Shown in pieces: positions 1 to 17,283 of a stretch of 38,430 nt of DNA. Every line of letters begins with the position of its first letter. Position 1 is the stretch's first letter. Origin of the DNA: Clostridiales bacterium (GTDB lineage: Bacteria; Bacillota; Clostridia; Christensenellales; CAG-138); contig CAKJYC010000017.1 in the NCBI GenBank assembly GCA_918244965.1, positions 1 to 38,430 of the forward strand, written 5' to 3'. The translations under genes were made by a program, and so were the position numbers. Below the pieces are notes generated by a model, which ran no database searches, was not told the origin of the DNA, and was given only the letters and a program-made list of their open reading frames with translations.

Positions 1-33
1 CCGTTCCTCTATGGTAAGATGTTTGTAGTTCAT
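1..33 (-). CDS. IS30-family transposase, first 11 residues only
   Basis: The visible residues are MNYKHLTIEER, which matches the conserved start of IS30-family transposases. An AAAGGAGAG ribosome site lies a few bases upstream of the ATG at 33. The rest of the gene, with its helix-turn-helix and DDE catalytic core, lies outside the window, so it is not possible to say whether the element is intact. Confidence 0.7.
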   Translation of the reverse strand, partial: MNYKHLTIEER

Positions 34-138
34 ATGTCTCTCTCCTTTGTAGTTTTGTTGGCAAACTTATTCTACCAGAGATTCATATGAACTTCTATTT
101 TTTCTTTCCTTACTGTTGCACTTGATAGTATAATTCAT
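1..138 (-). mobile_element. End of an IS30-family insertion sequence (partial)
   Basis: This stretch is AT-rich while everything after about base 180 is GC-rich. On the minus strand it holds a ribosome site and the first codons of an IS30-type transposase, whose body lies beyond the left edge. The sequence upstream of that start, roughly 105-138, should contain the terminal inverted repeat, but with only one end visible the exact boundary and any target duplication cannot be fixed. The transposase reads out of the window, so the end seen here is the 5' (left) end of the element. Confidence 0.65.
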
Positions 139-150
139 CGCGGACAAGAG

Positions 151-175
151 ATGCTCGTTTTTCTCAAAAGAGCAT
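151..175 (-). terminator. Hairpin over the stop codon of the last gene of the methyltransferase operon
   Basis: An inverted repeat (ATGCTC ... GAGCAT, extended by TTTT/AAAA) overlaps the stop codon of the gene ending at 164. No long U-run follows on the minus strand; the sequence soon runs into the IS30 end. It may be a weak terminator, or a terminator whose tail was separated by the insertion. Confidence 0.35.
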
Positions 176-655
176 GCAGATCCCGGCAAGCGCGGCGGCG
201 ACGAACGGAAAGACGAGGATGCGGACGATCTGCCCTTTGCGGTTGAAGCCAAACGCATGATAGCCCGCACAGCCCTCGGTTTCCGGATAGAAATGCTGGA
301 AGAAGTGCGATTTGGTCAGCAGCAGCCAGTCGAGACAGACGATGTCGAACGCCTTCCAGAGATACAGCATGACGAGGAAACGCACGAAGAACTGCCAGAA
401 CGAGAAGCCGTTTTCGATCCCGTTCCGGCCGCCGTAGACGAACGTGCCGATCGCAAGGAGCAGGCACAGGATCGCGAGCTTCCAGCCGAGTACGTGCTGA
501 CCGGGGAACCGCTGCGGATGGTCCTTCGCCGCCGCCTGAATGTCCTTCGGCGCGGTCGTAAAGAGTTTTTTGTTCTGGATCAGTCCGACGGCGGCGCAGA
601 GCGCGCCGAAGATCGAAGCGATCAGGATCAGCGAAAGCAAAAGCGTCAGCAGCAT
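164..655 (-). CDS. Four-helix integral membrane protein, paralogue of the protein at 4425-4931
   Basis: This 163-residue protein has hydrophobic segments at about residues 2-24, 55-74, 85-112 and 142-162, so it is probably a four-helix membrane protein. I do not recognise a named family. The ATG at 655 is chosen over the in-frame TTG at 676 because GTGAGG lies just upstream of the ATG and this start avoids overlap with the preceding gene. It aligns by eye with the 168-residue protein at 4425-4931: both have an acidic-aromatic stretch before a [CF]LDW motif in helix 3 (CLDW at 107-110 here), then an aromatic/His segment and a final hydrophobic helix. It is the last gene of the operon starting at 6468. 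Function unknown; a partner or transporter for the small molecule handled by the methyltransferases is conceivable but is only inference. Confidence 0.75.
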   Translation of the reverse strand: MLLTLLLSLILIASIFGALCAAVGLIQNKKLFTTAPKDIQAAAKDHPQRFPGQHVLGWKLAILCLLLAIGTFVYGGRNGIENGFSFWQFFVRFLVMLYLWKAFDIVCLDWLLLTKSHFFQHFYPETEGCAGYHAFGFNRKGQIVRILVFPFVAAALAGICMLF

Positions 656-662
656 AGGCGCC

Positions 663-1286
663 TCACTTCTTCGCAAGCACTGTGATCCACGGCTTTTTCG
701 GGTATCGGTCGACCGTCACGCGCGAAAACCCCGCCGCCTTCAACGCCGTCGAGAGTTCCTCGGCCGTATGGCATTTCATGCCGTCGATGATCTTCTCAAA
801 CTTCCGTCCGGTCTCGTCCGTGCCGTCGGATTCGTTGCAGATGAGAAACGTCCCGCCGGGCTTCAGCACGCGGCAGACCTCCGTAAAGCAGACGGTCAGC
901 CCCGGCCAGAAGTAGACCGTTTCAAATGCGGTCGCAAGCGCGAACGATGCGTCCGCAAGCGGGAGCGCCCTGACGTCGCCCTGCAGCACGACGCAGCGGC
1001 CCGCGGCGATCAGATCCCGGTTATACGCCTTCGTTTTTTCGACCGACAGCGCCGAATAGTCGACCGCAGTGAGCCTTGCGTCCGGATACCGCTTCAAAAG
1101 CGCGTTTGCGTTCCGTCCTCCGCCGCAGCCGAGTTCAACGATGCTGTCGGGCGACATGCGGTCCAGATGCCCCATGCCCCAGTCTGCGAGCTTTGCGTGA
1201 CCGCCGTTCATGCCGCCGATCATCAGCCTGCCCAAAAAGCCCTCAGGCTTTCTCGTTTGATTCACATACGTTTTGAACAATCCCAT
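663..1286 (-). CDS. Class I SAM-dependent methyltransferase
   Basis: A 207-residue soluble Rossmann-fold methyltransferase. Motif I is VELGCGGG, followed by the acidic SAM-ribose residue in AVDYS, a GDVRALP segment for adenine contacts, and the post-motif LKPGG typical of UbiE/Methyltransf_11-like enzymes. The ATG at 1286 is preceded by AAGGA; the upstream in-frame extension to 1340 lacks a ribosome site and would overlap the previous gene. It sits between an aminothiazoline-carboxylate hydrolase-like gene (10-base gap) and the terminal membrane protein gene. The substrate cannot be read from the sequence. It is one of four methyltransferases in the operon, each from a different subgroup, which suggests several different methylations or different substrates instead of recent duplication. 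Confidence 0.88.
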   Translation of the reverse strand: MGLFKTYVNQTRKPEGFLGRLMIGGMNGGHAKLADWGMGHLDRMSPDSIVELGCGGGRNANALLKRYPDARLTAVDYSALSVEKTKAYNRDLIAAGRCVVLQGDVRALPLADASFALATAFETVYFWPGLTVCFTEVCRVLKPGGTFLICNESDGTDETGRKFEKIIDGMKCHTAEELSTALKAAGFSRVTVDRYPKKPWITVLAKK

Positions 1287-1296
1287 TTTACGATCC

Positions 1297-1923
1297 TTAC
1301 TTTTTGTACCCGCAGTCGCAGTACGGTCCGCCGGACGCAAGCGTGTACTCGCGCACGAACGCGTCCGCGCCGCCGAGCGCGCTCATCGTGTAGTCGAGGC
1401 GGCACATGGCGGGAATATAGGCGGCAAGTCCCAGCTCGCCCATCAGCGTGCAGATGCCGCACTTCGTGAACCGCGCCTCATAGCCCGAACCGTCCGCGTA
1501 CGGCAGAAGGTCCATGTTCCACGAATAGCGGTTGCGGTCGGCGGCCTTCATGGCCGCAGTCCTTTGCATGGACGCGATATCCGATCTCGTGAATTTGCGC
1601 CTGCCGCTGCGTCTGCAAAACCATTTCATGGCGGCAGTCGTCATGGATTCGCGATAGTAGTCGGTCATCCGATCGAGCGACGGCCGTTCCCCCATCTCAA
1701 GGCAGAACGACGCGAACAGGGCGCAGTTCACGATATTGACAACAAACCGGTCGCCCTTCTCAAAGCGCGGCAAACCCCCGATGATCTCCCTGTATCTCGG
1801 TTTCGCGCGTCCTGCGACGTTCGCCGCCGCGCGCCGGTCCATGCCGAGCACGTCGGTCAGATTCCTTTGAAACGATCGGCGAAAGAGCATCCGCATACCT
1901 GCGGGAAGTCCGAAATACTGCAT
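1297..1923 (-). CDS. L-2-amino-thiazoline-4-carboxylic acid hydrolase-like protein
   Basis: A 208-residue soluble protein that resembles the PF14196 family (ATC hydrolase), named after a Pseudomonas enzyme that opens 2-amino-thiazoline-4-carboxylate on the way to L-cysteine. The recognisable part is the C-terminal half: a conserved CGICTLMGELG block, a DYTMS segment and a Cys-rich tail (PYCDCGY). The N-terminal part is helical and basic. Many Clostridia carry members of this family in operons with methyltransferases, and their real substrates are generally unknown, so the name should be taken as a family label. The start at 1923 lies 3 bases after the previous stop codon. Its place among methyltransferases hints at a heterocyclic, thioamide or thiourea-like substrate, but nothing here proves it. 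Confidence 0.75.
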   Translation of the reverse strand: MQYFGLPAGMRMLFRRSFQRNLTDVLGMDRRAAANVAGRAKPRYREIIGGLPRFEKGDRFVVNIVNCALFASFCLEMGERPSLDRMTDYYRESMTTAAMKWFCRRSGRRKFTRSDIASMQRTAAMKAADRNRYSWNMDLLPYADGSGYEARFTKCGICTLMGELGLAAYIPAMCRLDYTMSALGGADAFVREYTLASGGPYCDCGYKK

Positions 1924-1926
1924 AGC

Positions 1927-2763
1927 TCACTCCGTAAAGTCCATCCGGACGATCTGCATCTTCATCGACCTGTCGCCGATCTTCGCCATCAGCCGGAACA
2001 GCCTTGGCACGGACGGGTCCCTGAGGTCGTTGTAGCCGAGCATATACCCGCGCGAAGAGACCGCCGCATGCTCCATCCACGGCAAGATATCCGTTTCGAT
2101 GCTGTCCACGCAGAAATAATCGGAAATAGAGATGATTCCTGCTTCCTTCACCCACGTTTTCAGCATGATCTTCACCGCGCGTCTGCCGGCCGTGTCGAAC
2201 ACCAGCCGCCCGCCGGGAAAGCGCCTTGCCATTGCGTTCAAAAGCCTTCTGATCTGCTCCGTTTTGAAATAATAAAACACGCCCGCGGCGAGGAAACAGA
2301 CACCGTTTTTCGCGTCGATCGTGTCGAACCACGCAAGGTCGTTCAGGTCCGCCGCGACAGTTCTGACGCGCTCGCTCTCCGGCAAGAGCGTATTGCGCAC
2401 CGCGATCACGTCCGGCAGATCGAGGTTATAGATCCTGCACGTGCCGTTGTCGCAGTTCTCCGCCGTCTGATCGAGCCCGCAGCCGAGGTTGACAAGCGCT
2501 GCGAAGGGGTGCGATGCAAGGTAGTCCTTCGCCTCGATCATCAGGTCGTTCTCGCGCATGGCGACCTCCAGCGCGCCGAAGCGATACGCCGGGCCTTTGG
2601 AGCGCTTTTCAAGCGCCGAGAAATCATAGTCGATCCTGTCGATCAGCCCGACCGCCCGTTCGTCACGGAACAGGTTCGGAAACCGCTCCGTGCACAGCTT
2701 GCGCCCGAAGAGCGGGATCACAAGCGTTTCCTGCACCGTGTCGGGTTCAATGTGCGCCTTCAT
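1927..2763 (-). CDS. LCM/TcmP-type SAM-dependent O-methyltransferase
   Basis: A 278-residue methyltransferase of the leucine carboxyl methyltransferase-like group (PF04072), which includes polyketide O-methyltransferases such as TcmP. Diagnostic features are an N-terminal FPNLFRDERAVGLID segment, a motif I of the form VNLGCGLDQ at about residues 91-99, the acidic residue in YNLDLPDVI, and AADLNDLAW. Members of this group usually methylate carboxylates or hydroxyls. A GGGAGG ribosome site precedes the ATG at 2763, and only 3 bases separate it from the upstream gene, so translation is probably coupled. Carboxyl methylation of an amino-acid-like compound would fit the neighbouring thiazoline-carboxylate hydrolase-like gene, but this is inference. 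Confidence 0.82.
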   Translation of the reverse strand: MKAHIEPDTVQETLVIPLFGRKLCTERFPNLFRDERAVGLIDRIDYDFSALEKRSKGPAYRFGALEVAMRENDLMIEAKDYLASHPFAALVNLGCGLDQTAENCDNGTCRIYNLDLPDVIAVRNTLLPESERVRTVAADLNDLAWFDTIDAKNGVCFLAAGVFYYFKTEQIRRLLNAMARRFPGGRLVFDTAGRRAVKIMLKTWVKEAGIISISDYFCVDSIETDILPWMEHAAVSSRGYMLGYNDLRDPSVPRLFRLMAKIGDRSMKMQIVRMDFTE

Positions 2764-2766
2764 GCC

Positions 2767-3552
2767 TTACTTCCTCCCGACCAGAAGCGCGGAGCCCTTC
2801 AGCTCCATCCATACCGCCTCGCCTTTGCGGATGAACGTCCCGTCGTCCGTGGGGATCAGGCGAACGTCCGCATAGCCCATGCCCTTCAGCTGTTCGACAA
2901 ACGACTGCATGTCGCCGTATCTGTGCTTCGAGAAGATGTCGTGGATCGCGAACGTGCCGCCCTTTTTCAGCGTGCGCAGCGTTTCCAGAAGAAACGCCTG
3001 CTTATCGCCGGGGATGTTGTGATACACATAGTTGCTCGTGACCGCGTCGAAGGTCCCGTCCGCAAGGTCGAGCCGCGTCGCGTCGCCGCGCCGGAACGCG
3101 ACGTTTTTGACGCCCTCCGCCCATGCGTTGTTCTCGCACAGCGGCTTGTTGTAGGAGGCGTACTCCTTGCCCCAGCGGTCGATCCCGATGAACGACGCGT
3201 TCGGATTGCGCTTTGCGCAGGCGATCGTGAGCGCCCCGCTGCCGCAGCCGACGTCCAATCCCGTCCCGCCGTCCGGCAGCTTCACATGGTCCGCAATGCC
3301 CTCGATGATGCTTTTTGACATCTGCCGCCTGCCGTTGTACGAAAACGCACGGTACAGCAGAAGCATCCAGACGGTCACGCAAAGCGCGATCAGCGTCAGC
3401 GCGAGGAACACGACAAACAGCACGGTTTTCGCCGTGCCGGACACGAGTCCCGTGAGTCCCAGCACGATCCAAAGGATCAGAAACAGCGCGGTCGCCGCAG
3501 CCCCGGTTAGGATCATGCCCTTCGGCATCCAGTTCTTATAATCCGGTTTCAT
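2767..3552 (-). CDS. Membrane-anchored class I SAM-dependent methyltransferase
   Basis: 261 residues. Two hydrophobic helices (about residues 12-34 and 42-68) anchor the protein, followed by a cytoplasmic Rossmann methyltransferase domain with motif I LDVGCGSG, an acidic residue in GIDRWGKEY, RRGDATRLDL and the post-motif LKKGGTF. The stop codon of the upstream MBL-fold gene overlaps this ATG by four bases (ATGA), which shows translational coupling. The membrane anchor suggests a lipid-like substrate or one handed over from a membrane protein, and the operon encodes two such membrane proteins. Similar anchored methyltransferases are common in Clostridia and uncharacterised. Confidence 0.85.
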   Translation of the reverse strand: MKPDYKNWMPKGMILTGAAATALFLILWIVLGLTGLVSGTAKTVLFVVFLALTLIALCVTVWMLLLYRAFSYNGRRQMSKSIIEGIADHVKLPDGGTGLDVGCGSGALTIACAKRNPNASFIGIDRWGKEYASYNKPLCENNAWAEGVKNVAFRRGDATRLDLADGTFDAVTSNYVYHNIPGDKQAFLLETLRTLKKGGTFAIHDIFSKHRYGDMQSFVEQLKGMGYADVRLIPTDDGTFIRKGEAVWMELKGSALLVGRK

Positions 3553-4415
3553 TTTGTCCCTACCTTTCCGAGCGGGCGCGTCCTTGCGCCCTCCTCCGTG
3601 TCGTCGTCCTCCACATAGCCGTCATACGGCGCGGAAGGATCGACGTATTTCTTCGCAAACGGCTTGCACAGCTCGTCCCGATGCAGAAACGCAAAATCAA
3701 GATCGTCCGTCCAGCCGGTGTGTCCGGTGATGATCTTCAGCGGCCTGTTCCTTGCGTGGAGGTTCTTTTCCAGCGCTTCTAGCGATCGGATCGCAAGCTT
3801 ATTGTCCTCGGCGAGCGTCGAAAGGAAGCTGTAGCCGCCGTCCGCGCCGAACCACATCGTGTCGCCGGTGAACAGGTATTCGTCGTCGACGAGGTACACC
3901 ATGTGTCCCCAGGTGTGCCCCGGCACAAGCAGACATTCGATTTTGATCCCGTCGATGTGCAGGATCTGCCCGTCCTTCAGCAGCACGCGTTCGTTGTTCA
4001 TCTTCACCGGCGGCAGCTTATACAGCTTGTGCATGACCCGCCGCCGCACTTCGCCGGTCAGGTACCGGTTTTCGATCTCGCCGATATAGACCGTCGCGTT
4101 CCTGAACAGCTGCTCGCTGTCAAGTTCGAGCGCGCCGACGTGGTCGGTGTCCTGATGCGTGATAAAGATGTGTTTGATCGACGCCGGGTCGATGTCGAGC
4201 CAGTCCATCTTCTCCTTGAGCCGCGCATAGTTGTAGCCCGCGTCGATCATGACCGTCATGCCGTTCTTTGTGTAAAAAAAGATGTTTGCGACCCACTCGC
4301 GCACGCACGCGACGCGTTCGTCGATCCGTCCCGTGTTCAGCGGCTTGAAGATCGCCTTGCCGCGAAACAGCAGGCTCATGGACTTTTTCTGATGCTCCGA
4401 ATCCTTCCTTGCCAT
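3549..4415 (-). CDS. MBL-fold metallo-hydrolase
   Basis: A 288-residue metallo-beta-lactamase-fold hydrolase. The metal-binding motif is HQDTDH at residues 87-92, so Asp replaces the usual second His of HxHxDH. The other ligands are in place: H167 in VPGHTWGH, D185 in FTGDT, and a His in ITGHTGW. The HxDxDH variant is found in several Firmicutes subfamilies and does not by itself mean loss of metal. The C-terminal 30 residues are acidic and look disordered. The enzyme is probably cytosolic, since no signal peptide is present. Possible reactions include thioester, lactone or phosphoester hydrolysis; the sequence does not choose between them. It overlaps the following methyltransferase gene by four bases. 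Confidence 0.87.
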   Translation of the reverse strand: MARKDSEHQKKSMSLLFRGKAIFKPLNTGRIDERVACVREWVANIFFYTKNGMTVMIDAGYNYARLKEKMDWLDIDPASIKHIFITHQDTDHVGALELDSEQLFRNATVYIGEIENRYLTGEVRRRVMHKLYKLPPVKMNNERVLLKDGQILHIDGIKIECLLVPGHTWGHMVYLVDDEYLFTGDTMWFGADGGYSFLSTLAEDNKLAIRSLEALEKNLHARNRPLKIITGHTGWTDDLDFAFLHRDELCKPFAKKYVDPSAPYDGYVEDDDTEEGARTRPLGKVGTK

Positions 4416-4424
4416 AACGCCATC

Positions 4425-4931
4425 CTATCGAATGATCATGATCAGCAGCCCCACCAGCGCTGCGGGGATCAGGCCGAATACGATGCCCGGAAACAGCATG
4501 CCCTTCAAATGGAACCACTTCTGGTGATACGCCTTGTCCATGTGCTCGGTACCCTCCAGGCGGAACCGCCTGAGGTTTGCAAACAGCACCCAGTCCAGAA
4601 AGAACGTATCGTACGCGCCGATCCACACCATCAGTCCGAACGTCAGAAGGAAGCCCTCCCAAAACGTTTTCGCCCCCGCAAGCAGTGCGCAGACGAACAG
4701 GATCCCCGTAAAGATCACGATGCCGAGGCCCTTTGTGAAGAACACGCGCTTCGATTTGATCGAGACGTCGACCCGCTCGTGCGTCTTGAAGTATTCCTCC
4801 CGAATGTCCGGCGGATAGTTGTGGATCGCCTCCGGGGTGTATATTTTGTCCCCGCGATACGCCGAAAAGATGATCACCGTGAAGATCGCCGCAAACGCGG
4901 CCGCTTCCAGAAGGATCACCCACCAGGTCAT
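4425..4931 (-). CDS. Four-helix integral membrane protein, paralogue of the protein at 164-655
   Basis: 168 residues with hydrophobic segments near residues 4-24, 68-88, 92-116 and 146-166. The start at 4931 (MTWWVILLE) leaves an 11-base gap after the HMA gene; the longer open frame upstream overlaps that gene in another frame and is not used. The FLDW motif at 111-114 in helix 3, the YHQKWFHLKG segment and the last helix correspond to CLDW, YHAFGFNRKG and the last helix of the protein at 164-655. The family is not one I can name. Two diverged copies in one operon could form a heteromeric complex, perhaps a carrier or anchor for the methyltransferases; this is inference. Confidence 0.78.
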   Translation of the reverse strand: MTWWVILLEAAAFAAIFTVIIFSAYRGDKIYTPEAIHNYPPDIREEYFKTHERVDVSIKSKRVFFTKGLGIVIFTGILFVCALLAGAKTFWEGFLLTFGLMVWIGAYDTFFLDWVLFANLRRFRLEGTEHMDKAYHQKWFHLKGMLFPGIVFGLIPAALVGLLIMIIR

Positions 4932-4942
4932 GCCGCGTCCCC

Positions 4943-5194
4943 TTATCTCCCGAACAGACCGCGCTTTGCGTACGGCTCGACCGAGACCGAAACGAACGTG
5001 TAGCCGGTGGCTTCGATCGTTTGCTTCAGCTTTTCGCCGTCGATCTCCCGCTCCGAAAGGAACGTCGCCTCGCCGTGCTTTCTCGACGCGCTCACCTTTT
5101 TCGCATCGGGGAACGCCCTGCGGATCGCATCCGCAACATGCGCCTCGCACATGCCGCACATCATGCCGTCGATTTTCACCGTTGTCTTTACCAT
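4943..5194 (-). CDS. Small HMA-domain (heavy-metal-associated) protein
   Basis: An 83-residue single HMA domain with the metal-binding motif GMMCGMC at residues 10-16, the ferredoxin-like beta-alpha-beta-beta-alpha-beta pattern, and a short basic tail (KRGLFGR). HMA domains of this type bind Cu(I), Zn(II) or similar soft metals and act as cytosolic chaperones such as CopZ. A GGGAGGG ribosome site precedes the ATG. It is not in the csoR-copA operon next door but in the methyltransferase operon, between a methyltransferase and a membrane protein. That suggests the operon product or substrate involves a thiophilic metal. The alternative, that this is a copper chaperone captured by the operon, cannot be excluded. 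Confidence 0.85.
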   Translation of the reverse strand: MVKTTVKIDGMMCGMCEAHVADAIRRAFPDAKKVSASRKHGEATFLSEREIDGEKLKQTIEATGYTFVSVSVEPYAKRGLFGR

Positions 5195-5215
5195 ATTGCC
5201 CTCCCGATTCTCTCC

Positions 5216-5896
5216 TCACTTGATGCAGCAGAACACGCCCTCGGCCCGGACCGGAGAAACGCGCACCTCTTGATACAATGCCTGCAGCCGCTTTTCGAGC
5301 GTTTCCTTCGTCTCAAACGGCGGTGTGAAAAAGCCCTTCGGCTCGTACATGTGCCTGACGAACCAATCGGTCCGTTTGTATTCCCCCGCAATATAAAAGC
5401 AGCCGCAGAAAGTCCCGCCCTTTTTCAGCACGCGCCATGTCTCGGAAAACGCGGCGTCCTTGTCGGGAAACGCGTGAAAACCGTTCAGCGAAAGCACGAC
5501 GTCAAAGCTCCCGTCTTTGAACGGCAGCGCGCCGACGTCGCCCTGCACGAATGATACGTTCTTCACCGCAAGCGCCTCCGCGCGCCGTTCGGCGTTTTGC
5601 ATCATCTCCGCGGAATAGTCAAGGCAGGTGATCTGCGCTTCCGGCAAGCCCTGATAGACGGGAACGGTCAGAACGCCGGTCCCGACCGGAACCTCCAGAA
5701 GCGTTCCCGAAAAATCGTCCGGGATCGGCGCAAGCGCGTCGTTGATCCACCTTGCCGCGCGCTCCGCGTTCAGTCCCCAAACCAGACTGTCCATCAGCCT
5801 GCCGATCGGCGTGGACCGCGTGATGATCCCGTCGTACAGGCTTGCAAATCCGCCGAGCTTTTGATAGGACGCTTTGATCTGTTCGTGCCTGTTCAT
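5216..5896 (-). CDS. Class I SAM-dependent methyltransferase (UbiE-like)
   Basis: 226 residues, soluble. Motif I reads LLEVPVGTGVLT, in which Val-Pro replaces the common xGxG start; this variant occurs in a Firmicutes subgroup of Methyltransf_11 proteins and is unlikely to abolish SAM binding. Further motifs are CLDYSAEM, GDVGALPF and LKKGGTF. The start at 5896 has a strong GAGGAGG ribosome site, and the stop codon of the DUF3793 gene overlaps it (ATGA), so the upstream in-frame extension is not used. It is the second gene of the operon. The substrate is unknown. Confidence 0.88.
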   Translation of the reverse strand: MNRHEQIKASYQKLGGFASLYDGIITRSTPIGRLMDSLVWGLNAERAARWINDALAPIPDDFSGTLLEVPVGTGVLTVPVYQGLPEAQITCLDYSAEMMQNAERRAEALAVKNVSFVQGDVGALPFKDGSFDVVLSLNGFHAFPDKDAAFSETWRVLKKGGTFCGCFYIAGEYKRTDWFVRHMYEPKGFFTPPFETKETLEKRLQALYQEVRVSPVRAEGVFCCIK

Positions 5897-6468
5897 CGAT
5901 TCCTCCTCGATTCCGTATGCTCCGCCACGGTCAGCCGTTCGATCGGCGTGCCGTTTTGAAAGCGCTGCCGGTAGAGCGCGCTGCATTTCCGAAGCAGGCG
6001 AAATGTCTTCTGCGCCGCCGCTTCGTCCCCGTAGACCTTCCAGCAGCCGACGCATTTTACGTCGCAGTCCCGATGCTCGATGAAGCCTTTCACGTCCTCC
6101 GGCGGATAGCCTAAAAACAGCCCGATCTCATGCGGGAAATCTTCGTTGGCTCGGATCCGCTTTGCAAGGCAGCAAAGGCAGCGCGCAGGCGAGCCGCCGC
6201 AGTAGCCGCAGTTGGACAGGATCGCGTTTGCGGCGGCGTCGGACAGATCGCGGGAAAGCCTTTGGGGGCGGTACAGATACAAAAGCGCCTTGTTGTTTTC
6301 AAAGGTCAGCGGAATGACCCGCAGCCCCTTCCCGGAAAATCGCCGGTTCCATTCCCGCAGCGATGTGCGCATCGCCTCCGCGCTCTCATACGTACTGCGA
6401 AACAGGCTTCCCGTTTTGATCCCCGCCAGCGTCGGCGCGCCGTGCAGGATGACCGCTTCTTCCGACAT
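5893..6468 (-). CDS. DUF3793 family protein
   Basis: 191 residues. The FPHEIGLFLGYPPEDVKGFIEH block followed by KCVGCWKVYGDE and a Phe/Cys-rich helix is the signature of DUF3793 (PF12672), a family known almost only from Clostridia and without an experimentally assigned activity. A CGYCGG...CLCC cluster near residues 92-104 could bind a metal or iron-sulfur cluster, but this is only suggested by spacing. It is the first gene of the ten-gene operon; AAAGGAG lies 6 bases before the ATG at 6468, and one of the two operator palindromes lies immediately upstream of that ribosome site. Confidence 0.82.
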   Translation of the reverse strand: MSEEAVILHGAPTLAGIKTGSLFRSTYESAEAMRTSLREWNRRFSGKGLRVIPLTFENNKALLYLYRPQRLSRDLSDAAANAILSNCGYCGGSPARCLCCLAKRIRANEDFPHEIGLFLGYPPEDVKGFIEHRDCDVKCVGCWKVYGDEAAAQKTFRLLRKCSALYRQRFQNGTPIERLTVAEHTESRRNR

Positions 6469-6483
6469 TCGTTTCTCCTTTCA

Positions 6484-6499
6484 GTTAGTCCACGCTAAC
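6484..6499. promoter_or_regulatory. Second GTTAG-N6-CTAAC palindrome, next to the first ribosome site
   Basis: GTTAG-TCCACG-CTAAC is the same 5-6-5 palindrome as the site at 6551-6568. It lies just upstream of the AAAGGAG of the first gene of the operon. Two copies of the same spaced palindrome in one leader point to a dimeric repressor, perhaps looping or roadblocking. The protein is not encoded beside it. Confidence 0.6.
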
Positions 6500-6509
6500 C
6501 AGTTCCCCG

Positions 6510-6536
6510 AAAAAAGATGCTTTTCTGCAAAAGCAT
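6510..6536 (-). terminator. Leader terminator (attenuator) of the methyltransferase operon
   Basis: On the minus strand a perfect 8-bp stem, ATGCTTTT / AAAAGCAT, with a 4-base loop is followed by CTTTTTT. It lies between the promoter and the first start codon, so a large share of transcripts may stop here unless something intervenes. No obvious antiterminator or leader peptide is seen. Confidence 0.6.
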
Positions 6537-6550
6537 GTGTATTCTCCATC

Positions 6551-6568
6551 GGTTAGCGCTTGCTAACC
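6551..6568. promoter_or_regulatory. Operator palindrome at the transcription start of the methyltransferase operon
   Basis: GGTTAGCGCTTGCTAACC is a palindrome with GGTTAG/CTAACC arms around CGCTTG. It starts about 7 bases downstream of the -10 box, a classic place for repressor binding. TetR-type dimers use sites of this shape. The GGTTAG half-site also resembles DtxR/IdeR boxes, but the spacing is 5 bases longer than in those. Confidence 0.65.
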
Positions 6569-6574
6569 GCTATT

Positions 6575-6602
6575 ATCTTATCACTTTTTTCGCGGTTGTC
6601 AA
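6575..6602 (-). promoter_or_regulatory. Promoter of the ten-gene methyltransferase operon
   Basis: Minus-strand -35 TTGACA (6597-6602), 16-base spacer, -10 TAAGAT (6575-6580). The match is close to consensus for a housekeeping sigma factor. It drives transcription towards the gene starting at 6468; the untranslated leader would be about 100 bases. Confidence 0.7.
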
Positions 6603-6666
6603 GTGGAGAATGCCGGATGCGTCCCACTGTGTTTCCCCTGTGCGGCGCGGCGCTCCGACAGCGTGC
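6603..6666. other. Short intergenic remainder, nothing recognised
   Basis: This piece lies between the -35 box of the methyltransferase operon and the terminator of copA. No gene, repeat or further regulatory signal is visible in it. Confidence 0.5.
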
Positions 6667-6710
6667 AAAGGGGCTGCTCAGATCCCTCTTTCGATGATCC
6701 GGGCAGCCCC
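6667..6710 (-). terminator. Terminator of the csoR-copA operon
   Basis: GGGGCTGC ... GCAGCCCC arms (6670-6677 and 6703-6710) enclose a 25-base loop that can itself pair weakly. On the minus strand the stem is followed by a short TTT. It lies about 60 bases after the copA stop codon. Confidence 0.55.
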
Positions 6711-6772
6711 GTTCTGCAATTCGTTCCGGTTCGCACAGTATCCCGCGGGACCGCCGTGCGATCCCGTCCGGT

Positions 6773-6982
6773 TTACTCCACGCCGAGGACCTTGTACTCC
6801 TGTGCTTCGACGGCGGCGGTCAGGACCTCGTCCGCAACAGGCGCGTTCAGGGTAACGACGGCCGTGCCGAGCTTGTGGTCCGCGACCGCGCTTTCCACGC
6901 CGGGGATCGCTTCCAGTGTCTTTTTGACGCGCGCCTCGCAGTGCGGGCACATCATGCCTTCTACCTTCAGAGTCTTTGTCAT
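6773..6982 (-). CDS. Possible separate CopZ-like chaperone from an internal start in copA
   Basis: An in-frame ATG at 6982 encodes MTKTLKVEGMMC and 57 more residues, a complete 69-residue HMA domain with the CPHC copper site. Immediately upstream, at 6991-6999, lies AAAAGGAGG, 8 bases from the ATG, as good as any ribosome site in the window. Either this is a former copZ gene whose upstream stop codon was lost, fusing it to copA, or both products are made. In Escherichia coli a free CopA(Z) chaperone is made from copA by programmed frameshifting, so the dual-product principle has a precedent. Whether internal initiation happens here is inference. Confidence 0.5.
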   Translation of the reverse strand: MTKTLKVEGMMCPHCEARVKKTLEAIPGVESAVADHKLGTAVVTLNAPVADEVLTAAVEAQEYKVLGVE

Positions 6983-9310
6983 GGTCGGTTCCTCCTTTTG
7001 GATTTCTTTTGCTATCACAGATTCCAGCGCATCTGCGGGAATCGGTTTTACGGATTTGTCGTGTGCGCTGTCGTGCGGTCGAACCAGATTCAGCCGCAGC
7101 GCGTTCATGCAGACGAAAAAGCTTGAAAGCGCCATTGCCGCAGCGCCGTACATCGGCTTCATTTCGATGCCGTAGAGCCCGATGGCAAGCGGGATGCAGA
7201 TCACGTTATAGAAGAACGCCCAGAAGAGATTCTGGTGAATGTTCCGGATCGTCCTGCGGCTTAATCGGATCGCCGCCGTCACGTCCGAAAGACGGCTTTT
7301 CATCACCACGATGTCCGCCGCGTCGATCGCAACATCCGTGCCCGCGCCGATCGCAATGCCGTTGTCCGCCACCGTGAGCGCCGGCGCGTCGTTGATGCCG
7401 TCACCGACCATCGCGACCTTGCCGAGCGACTTGAGTTTTGTGATGACGTCGGCCTTTTGGTCCGGCAGTACGCCCGCCACGACCTGATCCACGCCCGCCT
7501 GCTTTGCGATCGCCTTTGCCGTGCGCTCGTTGTCGCCGGTCAGAAGAACGGTCCGCACGCCCATGCCGTGCAGTTCTTTGATTGCCTGCGCCGAATCCGC
7601 CTTGATCGGGTCCGCCACGGCGATCATGCCGATCAGCCTGCCGTCGTACGCGAACAGCAGCAGCGTTTTGCCCTGTTCGGCAAGCGCGTTCGCCTGCTCC
7701 TCCACGGCCCTGTCGACAAGGCCCATCGTGCGCAGATACCGGAGACTGCCGCCCACAAGCGCTTTGCCGTTCAGCATTGCGCGCAAGCCGTTGCCCGGCA
7801 GCGCTTCAAATTCTGTGACCTCAAAGATCTGCAGTCCCTCCGCGGCGGCGGCGACCGCCTTGGAAAGCGGATGCTCGCTGTTCTTCTCCAAAGACGCGGC
7901 AAGCCGCAAAAGCTCCTCCCGTTCCGTGCCGAACGGCAGAATGTCGGTGACCTTGGGTTCGCCCTCGGTGACGGTGCCGGTCTTGTCCAGTGCGACGATC
8001 TGTGTCCGTCCCGCGCCCTCCAGCGCCGCCGCGGTCTTGTACAGCACGCCGGTTTTCGCACCGACGCCGCTGCCGACCATGATCGCAACCGGCGTCGCAA
8101 GGCCGAGCGCACACGGGCAGCTGATGACGAGCACGGAGATCCCGCGCGCGATCGCGAACGAGAACGGACGTCCGGCGATCAGCCAGCCGATCAGCGTACA
8201 AAGCGCGATCCCGATCACCGCCGGCACGAACACGCCGGAGACCCTGTCCGCAATGCGGGCAAGCGGCGCCTTCGTCGCCGCCGCGTCGGAAACGGTGCGG
8301 ATGATCTGCGCCAGCGTCGTGTCCTCGCCGACGCGCGTCGCGCGGCACACAATGTACCCGTGCTGGTTCATCGTCGCTGCGGAAACCGTGTCGCCCTCGC
8401 CCTTGTCGACCGGGATGCTCTCGCCGGTCAGCGCGGATTCGTTGACCGCGGCCGACCCCTTCAGAATGACGCCGTCCACCGGGATCTGCTCGCCGGGGCG
8501 AACAGCAAAGACGTCGCCCTTCTGCACCTGTTCGATGCCGACCTCCGTTTCAACGCCGTCTTTCAGCAGCACCGCAGTCTTCGGCGCGAGCTTCATCAGC
8601 CCCTTCAGCGCGTCCGTCGTGCGGCCCTTGGACCTGGCTTCGAGCATCTTTCCGACCGTGATCAGCGTTGGGATCATTGCAGCCGATTCAAAGTACAGGT
8701 TCATGCCGTGTTTCATCACGACGTCCGTCTGACCCTCGCCCTGCGCAAGGATCATCAGAAACAGCGACGCCAGCGAGTAGCCGAACGAAGCCGTCGAGCC
8801 CAGCGCAACGAGCGTGTCCATATTCGGCGCGCCGCGCATCAGTGAGGAAAAGCCGGAGGTGAAGAACTTGCCGTTGATGACCATCACGGCCACGGCGAGC
8901 AGCAGCTCAAAGAGCCCTAAAAATACATGGTTGTCAAACGCCTTCGGCGCAGGCCAGCCCCACATCATGTGCCCCATCGAAAAGTACATGAGAACGAGCA
9001 GGATCGGCACGGAGAACAGCAGCCGACGCACGAGCTTCGGCGTTTCGCGGTCCTTCAGCGCTTCCGCGTCCGCCCATGAAGGCGCGCTGCCGGACGCCGT
9101 CCTGTCCTCCCCTCCCTTGACCGATGCGCCGTATCCGGCTTTTTCGACGGCTCGGATGACCGCTTCCGGCGAGGCGGTCCCCTCGACGCCCATGGAATTG
9201 GTCAACAGGCTGACCGAACAGGCGGTCACGCCTTCTACGCCGGACACCGCCTTTTCGACCCGCGCGGAGCATGCCGCGCAGCTCATGCCGGTCACATTGT
9301 ATTGCTTCAT
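6773..9310 (-). CDS. copA: Copper-exporting P1B-type ATPase with a fused C-terminal CopZ-like domain
   Basis: 845 residues; pumps Cu(I) out of the cytoplasm using ATP. Domain order: N-terminal HMA with CAAC at residues 11-14; membrane helices with the CPC metal site (398-400) in SCPCALG; phosphorylation Asp442 in DKTGT; the SEHP loop at 478-481 of the nucleotide-binding domain; GDGINDAP near 636-643; last helices with YN and MxxSS motifs; then a second HMA domain (777-845) with CPHC at 788-791. A C-terminal HMA is unusual, because CopA enzymes normally carry theirs at the N-terminus and CopZ is a separate gene. The linker encodes an in-frame AAAAGGAGG followed 8 bases later by ATG (Met777), so the same mRNA can probably also make a free CopZ-like chaperone. 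The start follows csoR by 13 bases, and CsoR should control expression in response to copper. Confidence 0.95.
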   Translation of the reverse strand: MKQYNVTGMSCAACSARVEKAVSGVEGVTACSVSLLTNSMGVEGTASPEAVIRAVEKAGYGASVKGGEDRTASGSAPSWADAEALKDRETPKLVRRLLFSVPILLVLMYFSMGHMMWGWPAPKAFDNHVFLGLFELLLAVAVMVINGKFFTSGFSSLMRGAPNMDTLVALGSTASFGYSLASLFLMILAQGEGQTDVVMKHGMNLYFESAAMIPTLITVGKMLEARSKGRTTDALKGLMKLAPKTAVLLKDGVETEVGIEQVQKGDVFAVRPGEQIPVDGVILKGSAAVNESALTGESIPVDKGEGDTVSAATMNQHGYIVCRATRVGEDTTLAQIIRTVSDAAATKAPLARIADRVSGVFVPAVIGIALCTLIGWLIAGRPFSFAIARGISVLVISCPCALGLATPVAIMVGSGVGAKTGVLYKTAAALEGAGRTQIVALDKTGTVTEGEPKVTDILPFGTEREELLRLAASLEKNSEHPLSKAVAAAAEGLQIFEVTEFEALPGNGLRAMLNGKALVGGSLRYLRTMGLVDRAVEEQANALAEQGKTLLLFAYDGRLIGMIAVADPIKADSAQAIKELHGMGVRTVLLTGDNERTAKAIAKQAGVDQVVAGVLPDQKADVITKLKSLGKVAMVGDGINDAPALTVADNGIAIGAGTDVAIDAADIVVMKSRLSDVTAAIRLSRRTIRNIHQNLFWAFFYNVICIPLAIGLYGIEMKPMYGAAAMALSSFFVCMNALRLNLVRPHDSAHDKSVKPIPADALESVIAKEIQKEEPTMTKTLKVEGMMCPHCEARVKKTLEAIPGVESAVADHKLGTAVVTLNAPVADEVLTAAVEAQEYKVLGVE
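6991..6999 (-). promoter_or_regulatory. Internal Shine-Dalgarno inside copA
   Basis: AAAAGGAGG on the minus strand encodes Gln-Lys-Glu-Glu in the copA frame and sits 8 bases before Met777. Its strength and spacing match a true translation start. Confidence 0.55.
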
Positions 9311-9323
9311 GTCCGACCTCCGC

Positions 9324-9635
9324 TCACTTCATCAGCTTCTTCAGCGTTTCCATCAGCTCGTCGACCGCGTCCTCGCGTCCGTTTCGGATGTCCTCGGTCA
9401 CGCAGGTATGCAAATGATTTGCAAGCAGTGTTCTCGAAAAGCTGTTCAGCGCCGAATTGACCGCCGACGCCTGCACCAGAATGTCCGGGCAGTAGGTGTC
9501 CTCCTCCAGCATGCGCTCTAACCCGCGCACCTGTCCCTCGATCCGCTTCAGCCGGTTCATCAGATCGCGTTTCTCCTGTTCGCTGCGGACCTTTTTCCGC
9601 CCCTGCGTTTCGTTTGTTTGGCAACAGTTTTCCAT
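9324..9635 (-). CDS. csoR: CsoR-family copper-sensing transcriptional repressor
   Basis: 103 residues, all-helical CsoR/RcnR family (PF02583). The Cu(I) ligand set Cys-His-Cys is present: C49 in DTYCPDIL, H74 and C78 in NHLHTCV, with the typical H-x3-C spacing. An extra Cys pair (CC at 4-5) lies in the N-terminal tail. The first helix carries RLKRIEGQVRGLERM, the DNA-contacting signature. Cu(I) binding releases the DNA and turns on copA. The ATG at 9635 follows AAAGGGG. Two G/C-rich operators in its own promoter show autoregulation, and csoR and copA (13-base gap) form one operon. Confidence 0.93.
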   Translation of the reverse strand: MENCCQTNETQGRKKVRSEQEKRDLMNRLKRIEGQVRGLERMLEEDTYCPDILVQASAVNSALNSFSRTLLANHLHTCVTEDIRNGREDAVDELMETLKKLMK

Positions 9636-9824: not shown

Positions 9825-10085
9825 TCAGTCCCTTTTCCGTGCGGCCTCGGCGATGTCGGGCCAGCGTTTGAGAATGTACTGCACCGCGTTCCGGCTATGC
9901 GGAACCATGCAGTCCGTACAGTTCTTGATCCCCGCTTCCGTATAGGTGAAATTGCCGCCGCATTTGTCGCCGAGCAGGTACAGCGGACAGTAGCAGAACA
10001 GGCAGTTGAAATCCTCCGGATGCGCGGTCTTGTGGCACGGAAAATACCTGCAGTCGGTGTTGTTGATGAACGAATCGCTGTTCAT
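9825..10085 (-). CDS. Cysteine-rich small-domain protein at the end of the cobalamin operon
   Basis: 86 residues with at least nine Cys, matching the 'cysteine-rich small domain' (PF04071): CRYFPCH near the start, FNCLFCYCPLY, KCGGNF, KNCTDC and a final PH. The arrangement suggests binding of a metal or iron-sulfur cluster. Genes with this domain are often found in anaerobic cobalamin gene clusters, but no activity has been established that I know of. The ATG at 10085 overlaps the cbiC stop codon by four bases (ATGA); an upstream in-frame extension to 10139 lies inside cbiC and is not used. Possible roles are cobalt delivery or a redox step of cobalt-corrin intermediates; both are guesses. 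Confidence 0.8.
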   Translation of the reverse strand: MNSDSFINNTDCRYFPCHKTAHPEDFNCLFCYCPLYLLGDKCGGNFTYTEAGIKNCTDCMVPHSRNAVQYILKRWPDIAEAARKRD

Positions 10086-10726
10086 TGCTTTGCTCCTCTC
10101 GTTTCGTCGATCCGGTACAGCAGCGCGTTGACGATGCACGCGGCGACGTTGCTGCCGCCCTTTCGTCCGCGCGCGACGATGTGCGGCACATCGGTTTCCA
10201 GGATCAGCTCCTTCGACGCGACGACGTTCACAAACCCCACCGGCACGCCGATGATCAGCCTGGGCCGGTAGCCCGCGTCGATGTGCTCGCGGAGCCGGAT
10301 CAGCGCCGTCGGCGCGTTGCCGATCGCATAGATCACATTCTCCCCCATCCGCACCGCCTTGTCCATGCTGACGCGCGCGCGGGTCACGCCCTGCGCCTTC
10401 GCCTCCTCGGCCACGTCCCCGTCCGCCATAAAGCAGACCGCGCGGCCGCCGAGCTTCTCCAGCGTACGCTTATTGATCCCCGCAAGTGCCATCTGCGTAT
10501 CGGTCACGACCGTCGCGCCGCCTTTCAGAGCGTCGAGCGCAAGCCGCACGGCGCCCGGCGAAAAGATCAGGCTGTCGACGTAATCGAAATCCGCGGTGGT
10601 ATGGATCACGCGCTTGATGATCGGCGCCTGTTCGGGATCGAGGACCCGATTTCCCAATTCCTCCGTGATGATGCGAAAGCTCTCGCGCTCGATCTCCATC
10701 GGCGCGATCTTCAGGATCTCCGTCAT
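10082..10726 (-). CDS. cbiC: Cobalt-precorrin-8 methylmutase
   Basis: 214 residues, CbiC/CobH family (PF02570). The enzyme moves the C-11 methyl group to C-12, turning cobalt-precorrin-8 into cobyrinic acid. The catalytic His corresponds to H42 in [10 protein letters not shown]. Further family blocks are [28 protein letters not shown] and RGRKGGSN. Length is normal for the family. It overlaps cbiP upstream and the Cys-rich gene downstream by four bases each. Confidence 0.95.
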
Positions 10727-12222
10727 ACGCCCTCCCTCAAAATGCGGTATACCGCGTCCATGTCCATGTGGTTCCGGATCGTTTCGGCCAGCAGATCGTA
10801 CTGACGCTGCTTGTGCGCTTCGCCGGACACCCTGCCGAGCTGCGCCGGATCGACGCCCTTCCGTTCGGCAAGCGCGCGCACGAGCGCTCCCGCGACCGCG
10901 TCGCCGTCCAGCACGCCGTGTACATACGTTCCGCAGACGTTCCCGTCGATCGCGCCGTCCGTTTTCGACGTCCCCGTGACCGCATCCGTAACGGCTGCGA
11001 CCGGCGCGTCCGACGCCGTTTCGCCCATATGGATCTCATAGCCCTCAAACGGCAGTTCCGACAGCGCCGAGAACGTGCCGCAAAGCGTGCCGAACGCGCC
11101 CGTTACGCGGGTGCGCGTCTTTTGTCCGGCAAACGTCGTATCGACCGGCAAAAGTCCCATGCCGCGCAAGGCGCCGCCGTGCTCCACGCCGTGCGGATCG
11201 CGGATCGTCCGTCCGAGCATCTGGAAGCCCCCGCAGATGCCGAGCACCGCCCCGCCGCCGTCCGCAAACCGCAGGACCTTCGCTTCGAGCCCGCTTTGCC
11301 GCAGCCATAAAAGGTCCGCCATCGTATTTTTCGTGCCGGGCAGGATCACAAGGTCCGGCTCGCCGAATTCGCGCGGCGAGGACACATAGCGCACGGACAC
11401 GCCGTCGATCGCCTCCAGCGTACGGAAATCGGTGAAATTGCTGATCCGCGGCAGCCGCATGACCGCGATATCGACCAGCGCGGCGGGCCTGTTTTCAAGC
11501 CGTTCGGACAGCGAATCCTCGTCGTCGATATCCAGATGCACATACGGCACGACGCCGATGACCGGGATTCCCAGAAGGTCCTCAAGCTGTTTGATGCCGG
11601 GCGTCAGAATGCTTTCGTCGCCGCGGAATTTGTTGATGACGACGCCCTTCACGAGCGCGCGCTCGTCCGGATCCAGAAGCGCGACCGTGCCGTACAGCTG
11701 TGCGAACACGCCGCCGCGGTCGATGTCGCCGACCAGCAGCACCGGCGCTTTCGCTGCCTTCGCCATTCCCATGTTCACGAACACGTCCGCGTCCTTCAGG
11801 TTGATCTCGGCAGGACTGCCCGCGCCTTCGATCACGATCACGTCGTTTTCGGCGGACAGCTTGCCGTACGCCTTCATGACCTCCGGCATCAGCGTTTTCT
11901 TGATCGCAAAATAGTCGCGCGCGCTCATCTGCGCCCACACCTCGCCGTTCACGATGACCTGCGACCCCATGTCGCTCGTGGGCTTTAAGAGGATCGGATT
12001 CATCAGCACCGACGGCTCGACGCCCGCGGCCTCGGCCTGCACGACCTGCGCGCGGCCCATCTCCAGCCCTTCCTTCGTGATGAACGAGTTCAGCGCCATA
12101 TTCTGCGCCTTAAACGGCGCGACCTTATATCCGTCCTGCCGGAATACGCGGCAGAGTCCCGCCGCGATCAGGCTCTTGCCCGCGTTGGACATCGTGCCCT
12201 GAATCATGATCGCGTTTGCCAT
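10723..12222 (-). CDS. cbiP: Cobyric acid synthase (glutamine-hydrolysing)
   Basis: 499 residues. Amidates side chains b, d, e and g of adenosyl-cobyrinic a,c-diamide using ATP and glutamine. N-terminal dethiobiotin-synthetase-like ATPase domain with the modified P-loop GTMSNAGKS (9-17), then [11 protein letters not shown]-terminal class I glutamine amidotransferase domain with nucleophile C330 in [11 protein letters not shown] and catalytic H435 in GTYVHGVLD. Length and order are typical for CobQ/CbiP. Its stop codon overlaps the cbiC start, and it begins directly after the cbiA stop codon. Confidence 0.96.
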
Positions 12223-13572
12223 TCAGACCTCCTTTGCCGCGGCGCGCAAAAAGCGCTCGACCGGCTTCGGGTTGGATGTAAAGAAGAGATGCGGAAACCC
12301 CGCAAGCAGGTTTCCCTGCGCATGCATGCACGTCCATGCGCGGCCGTTCGGCTTGACTGCGGAAAACGCCGTGCCGGGATCGCCGGTTTCAAAATAATGG
12401 AATTCGTGCGCGCGGATCGTTTCGCCCGCCCGGAAGAACGCCGAATCCGCATTCGCCGACAGCGTGATATAGCCGAAGCGGCCGAGCGTTTTTGTGCGGT
12501 ACGCGTCCGTTCGGATCACGCCGCACATCGGGTGCGGACGACCTTCCATATCGGAAAGCGTATCGCAAAGATACAGGAATCCCCCGCATTCCGCAAGGCA
12601 CGGCATGCCCGCTTCGATCGCGTTCCGGATCGCCTGCCGCATCGCAGCGTTTTCGGACAGCCGCTCTGCGTACAGCTCCGGATAGCCGCCGGGCAGATAC
12701 AGCCCCTGCGTCCCTTCCGGCAGCGCCGCGTCGGAAAGCGGTGAGAAGAACCGAAGCGCTGCGCCGTACCGTTCGAGCAGCGCAAGGTTGTCGCGGTAGA
12801 GGAAGCAGAACGCCTCGTCCCGCGCGATCGCGATCACGGTCCCCGGCATATCGGGCGCGGCGGGCGGCTCCGGCACGGAAAGCTCCGGCGCGGACTGCAT
12901 CAAGGCAAGCAGCGCGTCAAAGTCGAGCGTCCGCTCCAAAAGCGCCGCAAGCGCGTCAAGCTTTTCGGAAAGGCCGTGTATCTCGTCCGGCGTAACGAGT
13001 CCCAGATGGCGGCTTTCGAGCGTCAGCGCGTCGGATCTCGGAACATACCCGATCGGCACGAGGCCCATCGCCTCGACCGCGGGCTTGAGCGCCGCATACA
13101 CATGCTCGCTCATGCGGTTGAAGATCACGCCCCGCACGCCGCTGTCCGGGCGAAAGTCCGTGAAACCCTTTAGCGTCGCAAGCGCGGAGAGCGATTGTCC
13201 CCTCGCGTCGACGATCAGCACGACCGGCGCTTTGAGTGCCTTTGCGACGGCATAGGTGCTCGCCTGCTCGCTTGCCGCCGACAGTCCGTCGTAATAGCCC
13301 ATCACGCCCTCGATCACGGCGCAGTCTGCGCCTTCGGCGTTTTGCGCGTACAGGCGTCTGAGCGTATCTTCGTCGGAGAAAAACAGGTCCAGCGTGCCGG
13401 ATCTGACGCCGACCACGCGCTCGTGGAACAGCGGGTCGATGTAGTCCGGTCCGCACTTGAACGCCGAGACGGTCCCGCCGCGATTCTTGAGCGCGCGCAG
13501 AACGCCGCAGACGACCGTGGTTTTGCCGCTGCCGGAGGACGGCGCGGCGAACAGCACGCGCGGGCTACGCAT
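12223..13572 (-). CDS. cbiA: Cobyrinate a,c-diamide synthase
   Basis: 449 residues. Amidates the a and c carboxylates of cobyrinic acid with glutamine and ATP. The P-loop SSGSGKTT (12-19) is followed by FKCGPDYIDPLFH, the metal/substrate segment of CbiA; the C-terminal triad-type glutaminase has nucleophile C329 in LAECGGFLYL and a final His in HEFHYFE. The start overlaps the end of the triple-fusion gene upstream by eight bases. Normal family length. Confidence 0.96.
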   Translation of the reverse strand: MRSPRVLFAAPSSGSGKTTVVCGVLRALKNRGGTVSAFKCGPDYIDPLFHERVVGVRSGTLDLFFSDEDTLRRLYAQNAEGADCAVIEGVMGYYDGLSAASEQASTYAVAKALKAPVVLIVDARGQSLSALATLKGFTDFRPDSGVRGVIFNRMSEHVYAALKPAVEAMGLVPIGYVPRSDALTLESRHLGLVTPDEIHGLSEKLDALAALLERTLDFDALLALMQSAPELSVPEPPAAPDMPGTVIAIARDEAFCFLYRDNLALLERYGAALRFFSPLSDAALPEGTQGLYLPGGYPELYAERLSENAAMRQAIRNAIEAGMPCLAECGGFLYLCDTLSDMEGRPHPMCGVIRTDAYRTKTLGRFGYITLSANADSAFFRAGETIRAHEFHYFETGDPGTAFSAVKPNGRAWTCMHAQGNLLAGFPHLFFTSNPKPVERFLRAAAKEV

Positions 13573-15535: not shown

Positions 15536-16259
15536 ACAGGTACCCTCTCGGCGTGACCATTTTCCCGTTGATCACCCTCGTTTCGGAATTGCCGATGAAC
15601 ACGGACGAGAACATGTCGACCTCGGCGTTTTTCAGCGCTTCAAGCGTCAGCACCTGCGTCTGTTCGCCCTCCCTGCCGATGTTCCTTGCAATGCCGCAGA
15701 CGGTTTCGGGCGAGGCATAGCGCAGCACGAGCTCGCACGCGCGGGCAAGGGAGTCGCGGCGCTTATGGCTTGCCGGGTTGTAAAGACAGATCACGAAGTC
15801 CGCCTGCGCGGCGGCCAGAAGCCGTTTTTCGATCTTTTCCCACGGCGTCAGAAGGTCGGACAGCGAGATCACCGCAAAGTCGTGCATCAGCGGCGCGCCC
15901 AGGATCGCCGCGCCCGACAGCACGGCGGACACGCCGGGGACCGTCTCAAGCGTCACGCCCGGATACTGCGCAAGCAGCTCCTCGCACAGTCCGCTCATGC
16001 CGTACACGCCCGCGTCGCCGCTGCATATCATCGCAACGGTCTTGCCCTGCGCGGCGGTTTCGAGCGCAAGGCGCACGCGGTCGACCTCCCTGCGCATCGG
16101 CGTCGACAGGAATTCCTTGTCCGGAAACTGTGCGCGGACAAGGTCGATATAGACCGTGTAGCCCACGATCACATCGCTCGCTTCGAGCGCGTTTTTCGCA
16201 CGGACCGTCATGCCGTCCGCGCCGCCGGGGCCGAGCCCCACCACATACAGCTTATGCAA
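15528..16259 (-). CDS. cbiH: Cobalt-precorrin-3 C17-methyltransferase (ring contraction)
   Basis: 243 residues, tetrapyrrole methylase fold (PF00590), CbiH/CobJ subgroup. Recognised by YVVGLGPGG at the start, the ICSGDAGVYGMSG SAM loop, VPGVSAV, and the ISLSDLLTPWE segment specific to this subgroup. It methylates C17 and contracts the ring to give the corrin skeleton; the delta-lactone formed is opened by CbiG, whose gene is next door. No fused ferredoxin or nitrite-reductase-like domain is present. It overlaps cbiG by eight bases. Confidence 0.94.
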   Translation of the reverse strand: MHKLYVVGLGPGGADGMTVRAKNALEASDVIVGYTVYIDLVRAQFPDKEFLSTPMRREVDRVRLALETAAQGKTVAMICSGDAGVYGMSGLCEELLAQYPGVTLETVPGVSAVLSGAAILGAPLMHDFAVISLSDLLTPWEKIEKRLLAAAQADFVICLYNPASHKRRDSLARACELVLRYASPETVCGIARNIGREGEQTQVLTLEALKNAEVDMFSSVFIGNSETRVINGKMVTPRGYLYE

Positions 16260-17280: not shown

Positions 17281-17283
17281 ACG

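Follow-up and report, generated by a model that had tools for sequence, protein, structure and literature searches.

Operons in which a DtxR-family repressor controls iron genes are an established type, and the classical DtxR box is 19 bp long. In Faecalibacterium duncaniae A2-165, ferrous sulfate represses feoAABC, and flavodoxin rises with feoAABC (PMC10781979); the operator sites described below for this genus are from a related species, F. prausnitzii. The subject of this report is a ten-gene operon of a Clostridiales bacterium (assembly GCA_918244965.1), located in a stretch of 38,430 nucleotides (the window) that is one whole contig (CAKJYC010000017.1, here C17) of a 2.33-Mb genome that is 95% complete. 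The genes are numbered g1 to g10 in the order of transcription, and the families of g2, g6, g7, g8 and g9 are referred to as MT1, MT2tm, LCM, ATCa (PF14196) and MT4, respectively. This cluster, which together with its relatives is called the island, is probably an undescribed part of how gut and rumen bacteria cope with iron shortage. Whereas the DtxR-controlled iron operon is a known type, the content of the island is undescribed in the open PMC literature, in which no paper was found on DUF3793, PF14196 or DUF6796 in such an iron-island role. A preliminary description of the window had already proposed that the system was undescribed, and that view still stands.

An operator shared with the feo operon

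The palindrome GTTAG-N6-CTAAC occurs at five sites in the source genome: two at the island promoter and three in the feoA-feoA-feoB operon on contig C53. The reversed control pattern has zero occurrences in the whole genome. A DtxR-family gene (C53:2178-2552; PF02742 and PF01325), whose product reads DACKMEH, is transcribed divergently beside feoA-feoA-feoB; searches of this 95% complete genome found no other DtxR-family gene and no Fur gene. These sequences support the assignment of the island operon to the same regulon as feoA-feoA-feoB, with the DtxR-family repressor encoded beside feo as the predicted controller. Control of the island by iron through DtxR is thus predicted with high confidence from the sequence. 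The elements upstream of g1 are as follows.

6575-6602, minus strand: promoter TTGACA-16-TAAGAT, the only minus-strand sigma-70-like site in 1-9500, kept in the leaders of congeners
6551-6568, unstranded: operator 1, GGTTAGC-N4-GCTAACC, immediately 3' of the -10 element, kept in relatives
6510-6536, minus strand: leader hairpin ATGCTTTT..AAAAGCAT followed by six T, between both operators, kept in six leaders (-6.6 to -7.5 kcal/mol)
6484-6499, unstranded: operator 2, GTTAG-N6-CTAAC, immediately 5' of the g1 ribosome-binding site, kept in relatives

The single promoter lies just upstream of g1, in agreement with the earlier proposal that one promoter serves all ten genes. The leader hairpin and its T-run (6510-6536) could possibly act as an attenuator.

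A scan of GTDB genomes with an alignment of g8 returned 437 relatives, of which 80 loci were retained, and most of these come from records with a rumen or gut Clostridia label; the labels of metagenome-assembled genomes among the relatives are possibly wrong. Motif counts refer to 85 island sequences (1.25 Mb) and operon-content counts to 82 usable island loci. The motif occurs 114 times in the 1.25 Mb, compared with a mean of 0.48 for permuted half-sites of equal composition, and all but one of these sites (113/114) are intergenic. Spacings from 1 to 13 other than 6 give at most one match each, and a spacing of 0 gives eight. The motif precedes or adjoins island genes, feo, flavodoxin, DUF3793, the FTR1 iron permease and YbtPQ/IrtAB-like importers. 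For instance, an FTR1 gene with the motif is divergent from a ZIP-g8 pair, and DUF3793-flavodoxin is also driven by or adjoins the motif. Comparison of coordinates places a DtxR gene no more than about 500 bases from a motif in 16 or more genomes of the relatives set, and the C98/E101/H102 ligand set is invariant in the DtxR homologs of island relatives. TetR was rejected as the regulator of these palindromes: TetR genes stand beside ABC pairs in some loci only, compared with DtxR beside the motif in those 16 or more genomes. In congeners, a reduced or decaying copy of the island is found directly beside feoB-feoA-feoA and DtxR, and in congener G016 a CsoR-CopA pair lies between the feo-linked DtxR gene and the island. 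Because the operator is common to the feo importer and relatives of the island stand beside iron-uptake genes in many bacteria of gut and rumen, the island is probably part of a low-iron response. A second, shorter DtxR-family gene ends the operon in close relatives (L018:6994-7371, L019:435-854 and L020:3052-3411); it is missing in the source genome, where the contig breaks at this point.

The 437 relatives of g8 include one in Faecalibacterium prausnitzii. Strain APC923/61-1 carries the motif at DUF3793-feoA-feoA-feoB, flavodoxin, HMA, the g8 island, ABC2-ABC1 and an MT4-LCM pair that stands apart. Parts of the set are thus dispersed over this genome and yet have a common switch. In F. prausnitzii C13 (L169), the motif immediately precedes a gene identified by eye as one for pyruvate formate-lyase; such a step would spare iron.

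Gene content and its recurrence in relatives

The operon comprises ten minus-strand open reading frames from 6468 down to 164, called with a codon-trained model of our own that is suited to GC-rich DNA. The order and families given in the preliminary description are borne out by these frames and by family searches.

5893-6468, minus strand: g1, DUF3793 protein, 191 aa (PF12672, 5.5e-55)
5216-5896, minus strand: g2 (MT1), UbiE-like class I methyltransferase, 226 aa (family search; island family present in 36 of the 82 loci)
4943-5194, minus strand: g3, HMA metallochaperone-like protein, 83 aa, invariant C13 and C16 (family search and ortholog alignment)
4425-4931, minus strand: g4, helical membrane protein of about 165 aa from a many-paralog family, invariant D108 and D113
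3549-4415, minus strand: g5, MBL-fold protein, invariant H87-x-D89-x-D91-H92, H167, D185 and H232
2767-3552, minus strand: g6 (MT2tm), membrane-anchored class I methyltransferase, 261 aa
1927-2763, minus strand: g7, LCM/TcmP-type methyltransferase, 278 aa (PF04072, 3e-10)
1297-1923, minus strand: g8 (ATCa), PF14196 protein, 208 aa, invariant C155, C174, D177, R191, T194 and C202
663-1286, minus strand: g9 (MT4), class I methyltransferase, 207 aa
164-655, minus strand: g10, membrane protein of about 165 aa, g4 family

The start and stop coordinates also confirm the tight packing: g1/g2 and g5/g6 overlap by 4 bases, and the other junctions measure 21, 11, 9, 3, 3, 10 and 7 bases. Against the orthologous cluster of a congener, the ratio of nonsynonymous to synonymous substitutions (dN/dS) is 0.08-0.27 for all ten genes, and the genes are therefore maintained by purifying selection.

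The methyltransferases retain motif I for S-adenosylmethionine (SAM) binding, and none reaches the NCBIfam cut-off for a named function; the best matches of MT1 are MenG/UbiE, far below cut-off. Arsenite methylation by ArsM was rejected (58.7 and 57.4 bits against a cut-off of 263). It had been proposed that these enzymes belong to different subgroups. This holds in that g2, g6 and g9 form distinct ortholog groups and g7, of the LCM type, is separate, with no PDB relative by sequence; g2, g6 and g9 are nevertheless detectably related (about 30-40% mutual identity over their SAM domains) and are therefore old relatives rather than unrelated subgroups. The membrane proteins g4 and g10 are divergent members of a single family (22% identity), in which D108 and D113 are invariant. 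The model of g4 is helical and fairly confident (predicted local distance difference test, pLDDT, 85.7), and no known fold in the PDB matches it. In g5, HxDxDH is invariant in 31 orthologs in place of the canonical MBL motif HxHxDH, and the second Pfam match is the di-iron ODP family. Di-iron ODP/flavodiiron proteins have a carboxylate in place of the second histidine, and the motif of g5 is reminiscent of them.

The product of g8 matches Pfam PF14196 with 73.9 bits (cut-off 28.1), has no useful PDB relative by sequence and is modelled by AlphaFold2 with a pLDDT of 95.6. A Foldseek search of the PDB with this model returned H-NOX, Bet3/TRAPP and MopR/PoxR/DmpR, with E values of 0.006-0.1 (none below 0.001) and template modelling (TM) scores of 0.24-0.39. 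With hhalign, the cysteine-rich C-terminus aligned with one V4R protein at an E value of 7e-4 but a probability of 26%, and a second V4R protein gave no alignment. The six residues listed above for g8 are invariant in 65 divergent sequences, and no histidine is; g8 therefore lacks the heme ligand of H-NOX, and a role as an H-NOX heme sensor was rejected. We tentatively read these matches as a V4R-like ligand-binding fold. TolI, from the cluster for tolyporphin (a tetrapyrrole), is annotated under the PF14196 family name and is a lead only.

The preliminary description would have been undermined if the genes did not co-occur in other genomes, and they do. Full-length orthologs of g8 were found in 6 of 22 congeners searched, and of 103 genomes of the family, 18 gave a match, which was full length in 16. 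Recognizable versions of the cluster are present in six congeners and two more distant relatives, some of them on short contigs. The most distant, G051 from another family, has a minimal five-gene form (LCM, g8, ZIP, MT2tm and MT4) with neither motif nor DtxR. Within the 82 loci, the g8 operon includes the small membrane family in 36, LCM in 34, MT1 in 32, MBL in 30, HMA in 28, PF14196 paralogs in 23, MT4 and MT2tm in 21 each, two alpha/beta hydrolase groups in 17 and 16, ZIP in 16 and DUF6796 in 15; because many contigs are short, these counts are lower bounds.

Some islands have further components. A P1B6-type ATPase and DUF6110 pair occurs near 9 of the 82 islands and not in the window; one or both genes adjoin islands L047, L049, L052, L059, L081, L084, L090 and L092, and the two resemble a ferrosome-type pair. 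In L076 (8339-9988, Pfam-checked) and in L067, an ApbA-type reductase is naturally fused to an MT1-like methyltransferase domain, directly behind an operator. In congener G010 (L019:4258-6399), the MBL gene is split over two frames, and an MFS transporter gene is inserted alongside.

In the window, what reads by eye as the beginning of an IS30-type transposase (MNYKHLTIEER) stands at the contig end (1-30), about 130 bases downstream of g10. Directly upstream of the operon and on the same strand are genes for a CopA-type copper ATPase and CsoR (6773-9635), without GTTAG-N6-CTAAC. A long anaerobic cobalamin operon (CbiC, CbiA, CobQ-like, CbiJ, tetrapyrrole methylases, CbiG and CbiD), then genes for an ABC ATPase and Peripla_BP_2, occupy 10082-25241. 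A CbiC-family homolog adjoins feo in congener G010 (L149), and homologs of 9825-10726 lie near the island in L060.

Function of the island and competing explanations

A role of the island in iron supply is probable, with somewhat less confidence than its control by iron. The best explanation overall, which we regard as evenly balanced between right and wrong, is an iron-starvation island that acts at the membrane to make or remodel a small, hydrophobic ligand of iron. The iron-bound DtxR repressor would occupy the two operators around the start of transcription; as iron drops, the repressor would leave, and the ten genes would be made. With less certainty, the methyltransferases and the MBL protein may modify a small hydrophobic iron-binding molecule, the V4R-like PF14196 protein may bind or convert this ligand, the small membrane proteins may hold or move it, and HMA, joined in relatives by ZIP, FeoB or YbtPQ-like importers, may handle the metal. 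The specific chemistry, that is, membrane-associated making or remodelling of a small and presumably hydrophobic iron ligand, is only a tentative proposal. Hints of a hydrophobic ligand come from the many membrane paralogs, the predicted Bet3/MopR/H-NOX-like fold of PF14196 and a PEMT/ICMT-type protein in some islands. More tentative again is the general form of this proposal: a DtxR-controlled pathway, biosynthetic or remodelling, that would act on a hydrophobic iron ligand associated with the membrane. Its parts would be modular methyltransferases, V4R-like PF14196 and small membrane proteins, with neither nonribosomal peptide synthetases (NRPS) nor NRPS-independent siderophore (NIS) synthetases, and it would be widespread among the Clostridia of gut and rumen, F. 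prausnitzii included.

Several observations weigh against the iron-ligand reading. The association between motif and DtxR over 41 genomes is modest (Fisher p = 0.03), and five of these genomes have a DtxR gene without a strict motif site. The best NCBIfam matches of the DtxR homologs are MntR, below cut-off, and DtxR-family proteins can also sense manganese. The island is modular, its order and content differ widely among loci, and remnants occur. No siderophore synthetase (NRPS or NIS) was found among the island families scanned; with no scaffold-building enzyme, a newly built metallophore would have no obvious start. Genes for an opine-type, staphylopine-like metallophore (opine dehydrogenase and nicotianamine-synthase-like) were not found, and the ApbA superfamily occurs only in some relatives and not in the operon.

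The absence of a scaffold synthetase, together with YbtPQ-like importers in some islands, keeps iron piracy as a candidate: the island would degrade or methylate an imported foreign iron chelate (a xenosiderophore, plant chelator or tetrapyrrole), so that affinity drops and iron is released. YbtPQ and IrtAB are the best solved half-transporter matches of the ABC pair found in 15-16 of the 82 loci, some with the same operator; hydrolases dominate (MBL, the two alpha/beta hydrolase groups and PF14196), and variable content suits diverse substrates. We consider piracy unlikely, although a serious contender, since a purely catabolic route would not usually include four or more methyltransferases, and these enzymes favour synthesis or remodelling. 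The YbtPQ-like importer has no ortholog in the source genome (best relative, 34% identity), which counts against the iron-ligand reading as well, and most g8 operons are without one. Distinctly less probable is iron sparing or redox remodelling, in which the genes would modify a cofactor, such as a quinone-like one of the membrane, so that less iron is needed or Fe(III) is reduced for Feo. Flavodoxin in the same regulon, the putative pyruvate formate-lyase gene with its operator in F. prausnitzii, the MenG/UbiE matches of MT1 and FMN-binding-like proteins beside some islands (identified by eye) are consistent with it; the metal-handling partners (HMA, ZIP, P1B6 and FTR1) indicate iron handling instead, and the island has no quinone core gene.

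It is also conceivable, at low probability, that no single pathway exists and that unrelated accessory genes collect at an iron-regulated hot spot, where the promoter is useful to them. The very variable content and order, the decaying remnants and the 13 of 82 g8 operons without any other island family fit such a hot spot, whereas the same families recur together (at least five in 27 of 82 operons), separate pieces in one genome each carry the operator, and a natural ApbA and MT1-like fusion exists. The preliminary description had suggested that methyl transfer and heterocycle hydrolysis make or detoxify a thiophilic or soft-metal compound, and of all the explanations we hold this one the least probable. 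Its connection to a metal is upheld, and the HMA protein with its CxxC and the CsoR-CopA genes directly upstream would suit a soft metal. However, iron is the metal indicated by the regulation, by the neighbours and by the co-regulated genes (links to DtxR, FTR1, Feo and flavodoxin). A copper pathway was rejected, as the operator is shared with feo and not copA, and copA-csoR is a separate unit. The heterocycle hydrolysis fares no better: the predicted fold and the invariant residues of PF14196 resemble V4R/MopR-type ligand-binding domains, and hydrolase activity is a name transfer only.

The island bears on how abundant gut Clostridia compete for iron beyond Feo: it provides a sequence-defined, iron-linked enzyme set that is present in F. 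prausnitzii, a cultivable human commensal. The operator motif delineates the regulon in unannotated genomes, and the data suggest a possible role in iron metabolism, by binding or converting a ligand, for the proteins that bear the name 'thiazoline hydrolase' (PF14196).

Comparison with described systems

The island resembles DtxR/IdeR iron regulons with feoAB in its DtxR-family repressor with C/E/H ligands, its palindromic operators and the co-members feoAAB, flavodoxin and FTR1. It differs from them in the operator GTTAG-N6-CTAAC and in its methyltransferase and PF14196 members, which are undescribed in those regulons. The siderophore importers YbtPQ/IrtAB are the best solved match of the island-linked ABC pair; however, they are absent from the source genome, and no known siderophore biosynthesis genes occur near the islands. 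With V4R, H-NOX, Bet3 and MopR domains, g8 may have a similar overall fold (by Foldseek), and its C-terminal cysteine pattern is possibly like that of one V4R protein; its TM scores reach only 0.39, and it has no invariant histidine. Finally, g8 has an above-cut-off Pfam match in common with AtcB, the L-2-amino-thiazoline-4-carboxylate (L-ATC) hydrolase that gives PF14196 its name. The context of g8 is different, being an iron regulon with several PF14196 paralogs per island, and the hydrolysis of L-ATC is attributed to g8 by name transfer only.

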